A DNA stretch of 12,239 nt, taken from NCBI GenBank assembly GCA_013813905.1, contig JACCQX010000132.1, positions 1 to 12,239 of the forward strand, in the 5' to 3' direction. The stretch's first letter is position 1. Every line of letters begins with the position of its first letter. Below the pieces are notes generated by a model, which worked only from the letters and a program-made list of their open reading frames with translations, had not been told where the DNA came from and did no database searches. This document shows positions 5,177 to 9,839 of the stretch, piece after piece. Origin of the DNA: Chloroflexota bacterium. Lineage in GTDB: Bacteria; Chloroflexota; Limnocylindria; Limnocylindrales; CSP1-4. A program made the translations under genes and the position numbers.

Positions 5177-6664
5177 TCAGGCTTCCAGGCGCATCTCCTC
5201 CAGGTCCAGGTCGCGTTCCACCCGTCGCATCGCCTCATCGCTGATCGAACCCCGGTCGCGGAGTCCGATCACCGCCTCCCGCTCGGCTTCGATGACCGCA
5301 CGCCGGATCAGCCGATGGTCGAGCAGCTCCTTCTCCGCCTCGCCGCTGGGTCCACCCTGGTGGTGGTCGCCCAGATGTTCGGCGCGATGCTGGTATTGGT
5401 TGCGCAGCTGTGCGATCAAGTCGTCGTGATCCGGAAATTCGTCTGTCAGCTCCTCGATCCGGCTCTGGGCAGCGGCCAGCGCAGCTTGGCGGGCATGAGC
5501 TTCCTCGTGATGCCCGCCGCCATCGTCGGCAACGCCCAGACGCTTGATAAGGAGCGGCAGCGTCAAGCCCTGGCCGACCAGCGTGACCAGGATCACCACG
5601 AATGTCAGAAAGATGATGAGCGGCCGCTCGGAAAAGGGCTGACCACCCGGTAAGGTCAGGGGCAACGACAGTGCGGCCGCGAGCGAGACCACTCCGCGCA
5701 TGCCCGCCCAGCCGATGACCAGTACCGTCTGCCAGGGGGGCGAAGGATCACGGGTCCGCAGCTTGGAACTCAGGCGACGCGGCAGGTACGTGGCGGGGAA
5801 GATCCACAGGATGCGCACGGCGACGACCGTGGCGCTCACGGCGACGGCGTAAAGGGCAAGGTCGACTGCCGGGTAGTCGCTCAAGCGCGCCATGATCGAA
5901 GGGAGCTGAAGGCCGATCAGGATGAAGATCAGACCGTTCAGCAGGAAGAGAAGTATCTGCCAGGCGCCGCTGCCCAGCATCCGAGTCTCCGAGGACATGA
6001 TCCGCGGCGACCTGTAGCCGATGAATAAGGATCGGTCAGCCGTCGGAGGAGCCACGCTGCAGCCAAGCCCACAGCCAGCCCCAGTATGACTCCGCCGGCT
6101 GCCACCACGCTCAGCGTCACGACGGCGTCACCCAGCGAGAAGACGCGGGTCAGGGCGGCGGCCACAGCGAACCGCAGGGCTACCAGCGCCGTGGCGTTGT
6201 TGACCAGGCTTTCGCCCTCCAGCACGGTCACCGCGCGGCGCGGCAGACCAAGACGCTGGGCGATCGACGTCGCGGCGACCGCATCGGGCGGCGACACGAT
6301 GGCGCCGAGTGCGAAGGCGGGTGCCCAGCCCATGCTCGGCACGAGACCATGGATGACCAGGCCCACGGCCAAAGTGGTGACCACGACCAGCCCGACCGCC
6401 AGCTGGAGGCGGACGCAGGTTCGCCCGAAAGTCTCGTATGGAGGTGAAGAACCCCGCCGCGAAGAGGATGGGTGGCAGGAAGAGCAGGAAGACGAGATCG
6501 GGCGGCAGGTCCACATGGGGCATGCCGGGGACGACGCCGATGACGATGCCCAGCCCAACCAGCAGGATGGGATACGGGACACCGATGCGCCGCGAAACGG
6601 TGACGGCCAGGGCGACGACGACCAGCAAGCCCAGGACCAGCTCGATGATCTCGGCTTCGTGCAT
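5177..6664 (-). pseudogene. Broken CPA1/NhaP-type Na+/H+ antiporter gene
   Basis: Read from ATG 6664 (MHEAEIIELVLGLLVVVALA), one frame gives the first membrane helices and FFTSIRDFRANLRP. Homology then continues in another frame from about 6409 (LQLAVGLVVVTTLAVGL, then GAIVSPPDAVAATSIAQRLG and EGESLVNNATALV) to WLLRRLTDP. Near 6027-6030 it jumps to a third frame with FIGYRSPRIMSSETRMLG, FLLNGLIFILIGLQLP, WAGMRGVVSLAAALSLPL and the hydrophilic C-terminal tail. Between TDP and FIGYRSPRI, CPA1 proteins normally have some 30-40 residues with a conserved membrane helix; these are missing. The ion-binding Asp of the GESLVND motif is Asn (codon 6196-6198). CPA1 antiporters exchange Na+ for H+ at the membrane; this copy cannot make one. 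A sequencing error could explain one frameshift but hardly all three lesions. The third part alone (to 5177) stays open, but its apparent start is within the junction. Confidence 0.85.
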
Positions 6665-6726
6665 GGAGCGGAACGGTACTCGACACGCAAGCCGGCTGGC
6701 CCGCGCGCTTCCGGAGGCTGGCATCA

Positions 6727-6737
6727 TGACGTTGTCA
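6727..6737. promoter_or_regulatory. Small inverted repeat in the antiporter/saccharopine-dehydrogenase divergent spacer
   Basis: The 117-bp spacer 6665-6781 contains TGAC-GTT-GTCA, a perfect 4-bp inverted repeat, directly after GGCATCAT (6720-6727), a weak -10-like box for the plus-strand gene. Nothing else stands out in the spacer except GC-rich runs near 6749-6762. The site is short and may be chance. Confidence 0.2.
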
Positions 6738-8014: not shown

Positions 8015-8661
8015 CACGACCTGCTCCGATGCTCGTCGAGCCGGTCGTCCTGGAGGGCCGTCTAGTTCGCCTGGAGCCACTCGGGCTGGACCACCTCGAG
8101 GCTCTCTGCGAGGCGGGTCTGGGCACAGGCGCCTTCCGGTGGTTCACCGATCCCATCAAGACGCCGGAACAGATGCGCCGTCATGTGGAATGGGCCGTAG
8201 CAGCCACGCATGACGGGAGCCAGATCTGCTTCGCCACGGTCGACCAGGGGACCGGGCGGGCGGTGGGCAGCACGCACTACCTGAACATCGAACGAGCGCA
8301 CCACCGACTGGAGATCGGGTACACGTGGCTCTCCCCGACCGTCCACGGTCGCGGCTACAACTCCGAGGCCAAGCTGCTCCAGATGGAGCACGCTTTCGAG
8401 CGGCTGGCGGCCAACCGCGTCGAGTGGAAGACCGACGCGCTCAACGAGCGCTCCCGCGGCGCGCTGCTGGGCATCGGCGCCACCTTCGAGGGCATCTTTC
8501 GCAACCACATCATCGTGGCCGACGGACGACTTCGGCACTCGGCCTACTACTCGGTCATCCGCGAGGAGTGGCCGGAGGTGAAGGAACGGCTCGAGGCCCG
8601 CCTGGCGCGCCAGGCCCAAGGGGCGGGCGTAAGGGCTCAGCGCACCTCGACGATGCGGTAG
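8011..8661 (+). CDS. RimJ/RimL-type GNAT N-acetyltransferase
   Basis: 216 residues. The start ATG at 8011 overlaps the upstream stop in ATGA; an alternative is ATG 8029 (MLVEPVVLEG), which begins right at the conserved first strand. Family features are LEGRLVRLEPLGLDHLEAL, LEIGYTWLSP, the acetyl-CoA loop VHGRGYNSEAKLLQ, NRVEWKTDALNERSRGALLGIGATFEG and HSAYYSVIREEWPEVKERL, all in the standard order of the GNAT_3 group. These enzymes acetylate protein N-termini, amino acids or small amines; the substrate here is unknown, though coupling with a saccharopine-dehydrogenase-like enzyme hints at an amino-acid-derived amine (inference). The normal family C-terminus is reached near residue 198. The last 18 residues or so are an extra tail, and the final 25 bp overlap the end of the convergent GreA-fusion gene. 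Confidence 0.88.
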   Translation: MTRPAPMLVEPVVLEGRLVRLEPLGLDHLEALCEAGLGTGAFRWFTDPIKTPEQMRRHVEWAVAATHDGSQICFATVDQGTGRAVGSTHYLNIERAHHRLEIGYTWLSPTVHGRGYNSEAKLLQMEHAFERLAANRVEWKTDALNERSRGALLGIGATFEGIFRNHIIVADGRLRHSAYYSVIREEWPEVKERLEARLARQAQGAGVRAQRTSTMR

Positions 8662-9839
8662 CTGATCTCGCCCACGGGCAGCTTGACCAGGACCTCATCG
8701 CCGGCGTGACGTCCCATCAGCGCCTTGCCTACGGGCGAGGCGTTGGAGATCCGGCCGTCGCCGGGGCTCGCTTCGGTCGAGCCGACGATGTGGAAGGTCG
8801 CCTCGTCGCCGCCGACCTCGGCCACCACCGTGGAGCCGAGCATCACCTCGCCGGTGCGGTCGCCGGCGATGATGACGGCGCTGTCGATGAGCTGTTGCAG
8901 CGACTGGATGCGCCCTTCCAGGAACGACTGCTCGTTGCGCGCCGCCTCGTAGTCCGCGTTCTCCCGCAGGTCACCCAGCTCGCGAGCGTGCTTGACGCGA
9001 GAGATCACTTGCGGACGCTGGACCACGCGGAGGTCCTCCAGTTCGGCGCTGAGTCGAGCCAGGCCCTCCCGGGAGATGTGCGTCGGCTCGGGGGCCGGCT
9101 TGGTGGACGCCGTGGAGGGCCGCCGTGGGCTGCGCGCCGTCGGGCTCGTGCGCGTCGCCGGGGCACGCTTCGACGCAGACTTGCCAGCCGGAACGCCCCT
9201 TGCCGAGCCGCTTGACGTGCCGGCCGAGAGCCCGACACCGGTCGGTCGCTCATCGACGAGCGCGCCCGTGATGCCGTGCGTCCGACGCCCGCCGCTGGAG
9301 ACCTCCAGGTTCCCGAAGGGGATGACCGGCGCGCCCTCGGGCAGTGCCGCCGCGATCCCTGGGTCGATCCCGTCGACGAAGGCCGTCTCCAGCGCGTCGG
9401 CATATTCCTCGATAGCTTCCGTCTCGGCCCACCAGAGCCGCCACCGGCCGGGGTCCCGCAACGTCCGCAACCAGTGCCCCCTCGAGTACGGGCGTCGGAG
9501 GCCGAGCGGCGTCTGCTGCTGGGCCGCGATGCGACCGGCGATGGAGCGGGGCGCCTGACCGATGAAGAGGACCGGCACGCGGGGCAACCAGAACGTCGCG
9601 AGGCGCTGCGTCAGCTGATGCGGGGTCGGACGCTCGCCATCGAGCAGCAGGTCCGGCGTGCTCTCGATCCAGGCGCGCACGACCGCCTGGTCGATGGGCG
9701 CCTCCTCGGGCGCATCGGGCAGCTCGATCAGGTAGACGCCGGGACCTCGGCCGGAGACGCGTTCCTCCCAACGAGCAGGGCCATCGGCGATCAACCCGAC
9801 GCCGCGCAGGAGATCCAGGGCGGAGCGCGTGGTGGGCAT
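8637..9839 (-). CDS. greA: Fusion of a divergent GIY-YIG nuclease-like domain to GreA transcript-cleavage factor
   Basis: 400 residues from ATG 9839 (MPTTRSALDLLRGVGL); no strong ribosome site. Residues 1-198 resemble a GIY-YIG-type domain: GPGVYLIEL (33-40), LFIGQA (91-96, Phe replacing Tyr of YIG), Arg103 in the next helix, YSRGHWLRTL (118-127) and WWAETEAIEEYADALETAF (136-154) with candidate catalytic Glu151, then PFGNLEVSSGGRRTHGITGA. About 50 residues separate the two signature strands, an unusually long insert. Residues 199-252 are a Ser/Thr/Pro/Arg/Lys-rich linker. Residues 253-400 are a complete GreA: an N-terminal coiled coil with the acidic tip GDLRENADYEAA (Asp290 and Glu293 correspond to the Mg2+-binding residues of E. 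coli GreA Asp41/Glu44) and an FKBP-like domain ending NASPVGKALMGRHAGDEV. GreA enters the RNA polymerase secondary channel and makes it cleave backtracked RNA. No ATG, GTG or TTG lies in frame at the linker/GreA border, so GreA is made only as part of the fusion. Confidence 0.85.
   Translation of the reverse strand: MPTTRSALDLLRGVGLIADGPARWEERVSGRGPGVYLIELPDAPEEAPIDQAVVRAWIESTPDLLLDGERPTPHQLTQRLATFWLPRVPVLFIGQAPRSIAGRIAAQQQTPLGLRRPYSRGHWLRTLRDPGRWRLWWAETEAIEEYADALETAFVDGIDPGIAAALPEGAPVIPFGNLEVSSGGRRTHGITGALVDERPTGVGLSAGTSSGSARGVPAGKSASKRAPATRTSPTARSPRRPSTASTKPAPEPTHISREGLARLSAELEDLRVVQRPQVISRVKHARELGDLRENADYEAARNEQSFLEGRIQSLQQLIDSAVIIAGDRTGEVMLGSTVVAEVGGDEATFHIVGSTEASPGDGRISNASPVGKALMGRHAGDEVLVKLPVGEISYRIVEVR

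Follow-up and report, generated by a model that had tools for sequence, protein, structure and literature searches.

The window, that is, the whole stretch of 12,239 nucleotides of Chloroflexota DNA that we analyzed, carries one gene whose product joins an N-terminal domain to a complete GreA (Table 1). The original prediction had read from the sequence one frame of 400 residues with a GVY and an FIG half-motif, a following arginine, a basic linker, and an acidic tip, and all of these were confirmed on the minus strand. To the left, the frame of a GNAT acetyltransferase faces the fusion tail to tail, with its end at 8661, and to the right lies an M1 aminopeptidase transcribed away from it. Other genes of the window match GNAT/SCP2, luciferase-like monooxygenase, S41 peptidase, trypsin-like protease with PDZ, HxlR, Na/H exchanger, and saccharopine dehydrogenase. 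Of 39 loci tested, 6 have the aminopeptidase next to the fusion (L052, L054, L061, and L100-L102), with L100 being the same place as L054 and L101 the same as L052. Clusters of other neighbouring frames seemed to consist largely of high-GC antisense frames and were set aside.

Table 1. Parts of the fusion gene and their positions in the window.
Feature	Position	Strand	Basis or remark
Whole fusion gene	8637..9839	minus	400 aa, ATG start, stop at 8637-8639
Predicted GIY-YIG-fold domain, about residues 7-195	9255..9821	minus	structure model, profile link, VIA-align
GVY half-motif, residues 34-36	9732..9740	minus	
FIG half-motif (YIG position), residues 92-94	9558..9566	minus	
Arg103, GIY-YIG arginine	9531..9533	minus	84/84 fusions
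Tyr118 at the invariant His position of the free family	9486..9488	minus	profile alignment
Ala147 at the metal-ligand Glu position of the free family	9399..9401	minus	profile alignment
Asn177, second metal-ligand position	9309..9311	minus	Asn in 74/84 fusions
Disordered basic linker, about residues 200-250	9090..9242	minus	pLDDT and net charge
Complete GreA, residues 253-400 (coiled coil and C-terminal domain)	8640..9083	minus	Pfam, NCBIfam
Acidic tip, Asp290 to Glu293	8961..8972	minus	Asp290 and Glu293 in 84/84 fusions

Counting that of the window itself, 117 protein clusters match residues 1-200, and in 111 of them a Gre Pfam domain stands behind the same N-terminal domain. Conservation is reported for an alignment (A2) of 84 of the 117 hits, from which truncated and near-identical ones were left out by hand. 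Mean pairwise identity among these 84 fusions is 0.536 in the N-terminal domain, 0.556 in the Gre part, and 0.231 in the linker. The linker has a pLDDT below 50 across most of residues 207-241 in the structure model. Its net charge is +9 in the window protein with a median of +8 across the 84 fusions, where 45-102 residues lie between positions 196 and 255. In-frame ATG, GTG, or TTG codons stand at codons 1, 16, 54, 85, 88, 124, and 127, and the next only at 272, already within the GreA coiled coil. Since no start codon lies between codons 127 and 272, no start frees GreA, just as had been predicted, and the 400 aa product departs in length from free GreA of about 158 aa. Judged by sequence and structure model, the fusion is a GIY-YIG-fold domain, a flexible positively charged arm, and a complete Gre with an intact tip.

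The GreA part is complete, as the original prediction held: both Gre domains are found by Pfam (PF03449, E 1.1e-24; PF01272, E 2.1e-20), and two NCBIfam GreA cut-offs are passed (NF001263, 157.1 vs 145; TIGR01462, 147.2 vs 139). Asp290 and Glu293 are the equivalents of the E. coli tip residues D41 and E44. According to PMC7527559, the coiled coil of GreA goes into the secondary channel and the globular domain remains outside, with D41 and E44 working at the polymerase active site. Like GreA of E. coli (1grj) and of the NF001263 and TIGR01462 models, the fusion has a complete coiled coil, a C-terminal domain, and the acidic tip; unlike 1grj, it has 250 additional residues in front. It also resembles the N-terminally extended GreA proteins PRK14720 (NF011309) and PRK06330 (NF004969) in that GreA lies inside a longer protein. 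However, it matches these models in the Gre part only and far below their cut-offs (85.1 vs 714 and 44.9 vs 697, respectively).

The N-terminal part was compared at the level of fold. Residues 1-250 had no match at E up to 10 in Pfam or PADLOC, nor at E up to 1 in NCBIfam, and hence no curated GIY-YIG model of Pfam or NCBIfam recognizes them. The structure model of residues 1-199 (pLDDT 93.9, pTM 0.90) has a three-stranded sheet with flanking helices and the half-motifs on two strands. Four entries were shown by VIA-align, all of them GIY-YIG, including T4 EndoII and R.Eco29kI. In hhalign the domain was linked to a free GIY-YIG-like family (97.8-98.5%, score 97.2; 50 column-shuffled controls at most 19.2), and this free family to UvrC (94%, score 46.4; 50 shuffled controls at most 17.7). 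The direct comparison of the domain with UvrC was weak (score 26.6; 50 shuffled controls at most 19.5). Through the bridging free family, the confident models, and VIA-align, residues from about 7 to 195 are assigned to a divergent GIY-YIG fold, which upholds the predicted identity of this domain.

With T4 EndoII (2wsh), R.Eco29kI (3mx1, 3mx4), and the N-terminal domain of UvrC, the domain shares the fold, the half-motif positions, the Arg, and the Asn. In contrast to them, it has a two-helix insert (51-60 and 73-81) between the half-motifs, its catalytic set is mostly incomplete among the fusions, and it is joined to GreA. The free family (L089/P0118) has the same layout of GVY, long insert, YIG, Arg, His, Glu, and PFAN, but its proteins are of about 160 aa and mostly free-standing, and both tyrosines are present in 38 of 38. 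The alignment of this family (A3) holds 38 of 180 hits, chosen among the 120 matches listed, and the two members tested (around L089/P0118) had no Pfam or NCBIfam match. Free GIY-YIG-like proteins were seen at 1740-2219 of L089 and at 1887-2453 of L090, both on the minus strand and both lacking a Pfam or NCBIfam match. Among the free relatives are Sphingomonadales proteins, and one, P0123, carries HTH (PF01381, PF13560).

How much of the catalytic set is left in the fused domain? The Tyr, Tyr, Arg, His, Glu, and Asn of the free family map to residues 36, 92, 103, 118, 147, and 177 by a profile alignment that is gapless from Arg103 to the helix 143-157. On this mapping the window protein reads YFRYAN against YYRHEN. 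Three of six positions of an active nuclease are thus kept (the GIY tyrosine Tyr36, Arg103, and Asn177), and Phe92, Tyr118, and Ala147 stand in place of the YIG tyrosine, the His, and the metal-binding Glu. As the YIG tyrosine is replaced by Phe92, we do not file the window protein as an active nuclease. The Glu-bearing helix of the original prediction is there, with Glu144 and Glu145 in helix 143-157 by sequence and model, but the mapped metal-binding position in it is an alanine. Because Glu144, Glu145, and Asp148 beside this position are mostly kept (in 80, 83, and 81 of 84 fusions), another acid could serve as metal ligand.

Residue 36 is Tyr in 28 fusions, Phe in 46, Leu in 9, and Ile in 1, and residue 92 is Tyr in 62, Phe in 21, and Leu in 1; both tyrosines occur together in 16 of the 84 and neither in 10. 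Position 118 is His in 52, and position 147 is Glu in 61, Ala in 17, and Leu in 6. Altogether, six positions are kept in 7 fusions, five in 38, four in 16, three in 19, and two in 4. The full set was found in 7/84 fusions, 26/53 proteins with another tail, and 36/38 free proteins; fused loci with all six positions are L028-L031, L033, and L038. The lysine after YIG, present in 38/38 proteins of the free family, is not kept in the fusions. The domain has ten invariant columns, and nine of them (Glu39, Trp57, Asp67, Trp84, Gly113, Pro117, Trp136, Trp137, and Pro174) are outside the six catalytic positions.

For ANKLE1, PMC10287932 reports undetectable activity after changes of the first Tyr to Phe, of the Glu, and of the Asn, a 3500-fold loss after the second Tyr was changed to Phe, and a 150-fold loss for His to Ala. 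The title of PDB entry 3nic names an inactive Y49F variant of R.Eco29kI. Counting against inactivity, R.Hpy188I has been proposed to function with Lys at the YIG position (PMC2630997). The pattern among the fusions suggests catalytic decay in most lineages, that of the window included, with scaffold and arginine retained; it further suggests relaxed selection for cutting in most lineages with shape and arginine held. The original prediction of a cutting module therefore fares poorly: with three of six positions left, cutting by the window protein is unlikely, and by most relatives it is doubtful.

It is instructive to trace the fusion across taxa. In a class-wide search of 177 genomes with the N-terminal profile, in which at most 18 candidates per genome were scored, 93 genomes matched, all in the window's own family (93/107); the remaining families of the class, with 70 genomes, gave no match. 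One of the 93 (G099) matches only via a short divergent protein, and the remaining 92/107 family genomes match strongly (E below 1e-50). A phylum-wide sample of 400 genomes, with at most eight candidates scored in each, gave 34 matches, of which 32 fall in the window's family and two, both weak and partial, lie outside it. In another Chloroflexota family, G197:C1:2791797-2792084 weakly matches the domain's second half, with one in-frame TAG. A scan of GTDB contigs yielded 37 loci, with titles of Chloroflexota or Chloroflexi MAGs and one Candidatus Limnocylindrales MAG; L088 is a fragment.

This distribution bears on whether the fusion is an assembly or frame artefact, a reading whose probability is now negligible. 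Five of the 117 clusters (P0033, P0038, P0043, P0057, and P0060) lack Gre and have tails that appear by eye to be out of frame, and L024/L053 is broken by unread bases. Against this stand the 111 clusters with Gre behind the same N-terminal domain, which come from many assemblies. Since the fusion is conserved, the artefact is refuted, and the original view of a real fusion holds.

Gre frames outside the fusion were counted as well. Among 45 relatives with at least 88% completeness, a Gre frame without the N-terminal domain was detected in all 45 (the one in G030 belongs to the fused type), and 35 have both the fusion and such a frame, Gre frames being assigned to fusion or non-fusion by contig and, for one frame, by direct reading of its locus. 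Genome G057 is counted among the 35 though unread bases split its frame. The other ten have Gre and no in-frame fusion: G018 and G027 look like contig breaks; G003, G030, G032, G033, and G034 have the N-terminal domain elsewhere in the genome, in all of these except G032 with another, 80-residue tail; and G021, G074, and G099 are without the full N-terminal domain. In the source genome the fusion is the only Gre found, and as this genome is 62% complete (1.3 Mb of sequence), free GreA may simply be missing from the data. Three or four Gre N-domain matches per genome were seen in G105, G035, G061, and G110. By genome content, the fusion is a paralogue, a second lineage-specific GreA.

The tree of Gre domains (78 domains, 149 columns) is unrooted, and its columns are few for 78 rows; domains shorter than 130 residues, with unread letters, or identical were omitted, among them L024/L053 and L037/L062. 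In this tree 34 free GreA group together with support 100/99, namely 30 from the window's family and 4 from a second family in the class. Outside the group are all 43 fused Gre and one free Gre, L110 of G030. Two changes suffice for the fused label, where shuffles take 25.8, and the starred branches force at least 1. This grouping sets the fused Gre apart from ordinary GreA, including the free GreA of the same Chloroflexota family. The two parts appear as separate genes in G030 (genus g11), where L110 has a Gre of the fused type on its own and L042 has the N-terminal domain with the other tail; this looks like a fusion that has come apart.

The 80-residue tail was found behind the N-terminal domain at L036, L042, L046-L048, L071, L091, and P0097. 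In a second search, with a length limit that mostly excluded the 400-aa fusions, 114 proteins were examined of 282 hits: 53 had this tail, 8 had Gre, and 53 had neither. The tail-bearing P0097, L046, and L048 had no Pfam match, and by the look of its sequence alone the tail seems winged-helix-like. The forms with the other tail keep the catalytic set more often. The domain, which occurs with different partners, is thus an independent module, and its decay goes with the Gre partner.

We consider the fusion to be a GreA paralogue with a GIY-YIG module on a tether. This module, mostly without catalytic function, would bind nucleic acid at paused polymerase, and we give this reading a probability slightly above one half (about 0.53). 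Its Gre part would enter the secondary channel of a paused or backtracked RNA polymerase and stimulate transcript cleavage like ordinary GreA. The arm would keep the GIY-YIG-derived domain outside the channel and let it reach nucleic acid near the channel mouth, where the domain may bind the DNA downstream or RNA that has been extruded, in most cases without cutting it. Such binding could make the paralogue stay on, or target, particular stalled complexes, for example at lesions. The intact Gre tip, the passed GreA cut-offs, an N-terminal domain conserved about like Gre, its kinship with GIY-YIG proteins, the catalytic decay, and the Gre frame without the domain in 45/45 relatives count for this reading; the 7 fusions with the whole set, the 38 that miss only one of six positions, the acids kept beside the mapped Glu, and the Lys proposed for R.Hpy188I count against it. 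The target of the domain could also be protein instead of nucleic acid. Such a docking or regulatory module, whose scaffold would touch a repair protein or a subunit of the polymerase and do no more than set the affinity of the factor, seems to us rather improbable. The nine invariant non-catalytic columns suggest a family-specific role, and the domain is also found with a different tail, but an arginine conserved in 84/84 would then be needless, and a basic linker fits nucleic acid.

A polymerase-tethered active nuclease, which would nick DNA or cut extruded RNA near backtracked polymerase as a transcription-coupled incision, is unlikely. Constancy of Arg103, retention of Asn177, and the 7 fusions with six positions speak for it. 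However, the window protein retains only half of the set, the first Tyr is gone in 56 of the 84, both tyrosines in 10, and the mapped Glu in 23, the lysine after YIG is not kept, and UvrC is found separately, over its cut-off, in 44/46 genomes. In the source genome uvrC lies at G000:C184, and the fusion matches no uvrC model of NCBIfam; the fusion as a substitute for UvrC was rejected because uvrC is present separately. A mixed history, in which GreA of the full-set lineages (7/84, e.g., L028-L031) brings an active GIY-YIG nuclease to backtracked polymerase for UvrABC-independent transcription-coupled incision, and the domain of most relatives, the window's included, has decayed to a nucleic-acid sensor, we regard as quite improbable. 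Very improbable is an anti-phage conflict effector directed against a hijacked polymerase. A precedent for it exists in published conflict systems, where effector domains and nuclease-type partners are joined to a GreA/B-C domain (eLife 2021, PMC8195603), and like the fusion these systems place a nuclease-type module on a secondary-channel binder. They are, however, built differently, from TPR, a Gre C domain without the coiled coil, PIN, and exchangeable effectors, whereas the fusion has GreA_N and GreA_C, and no PIN or TPR was found by Pfam. No sign of the attack on foreign DNA that the original prediction had considered was seen, and the defence-gene reading was rejected: the gene is common throughout one family and missing from the rest of the class, the neighbours are housekeeping genes, and there is no PADLOC match.

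A fusion of GIY-YIG and GreA has no published description that we could find in a whole-word literature search, with most subscription journals and all preprints outside its scope, in line with what the original prediction had stated. Looser searches listed none either among the titles and abstract openings displayed. A secondary-channel factor that carries a nuclease-derived domain would tie polymerase rescue directly and physically to nucleic-acid processing. The family is a natural series, from the full catalytic set down to two of six positions, so that existing proteins would suffice to test what cutting contributes. A fold can now be proposed for the N-terminal domain of proteins named only GreA or hypothetical in the sources, and the analysis points to a broad unnamed GIY-YIG-like family.

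Apart from the fusion, the Na/H exchanger of the window may be split between two frames at 5177-6727 on the minus strand. The frame 5177-6055 covers only positions 256-374 of the exchanger profile, and the frame 6128-6727 looks, by eye, like the front part missing from it.
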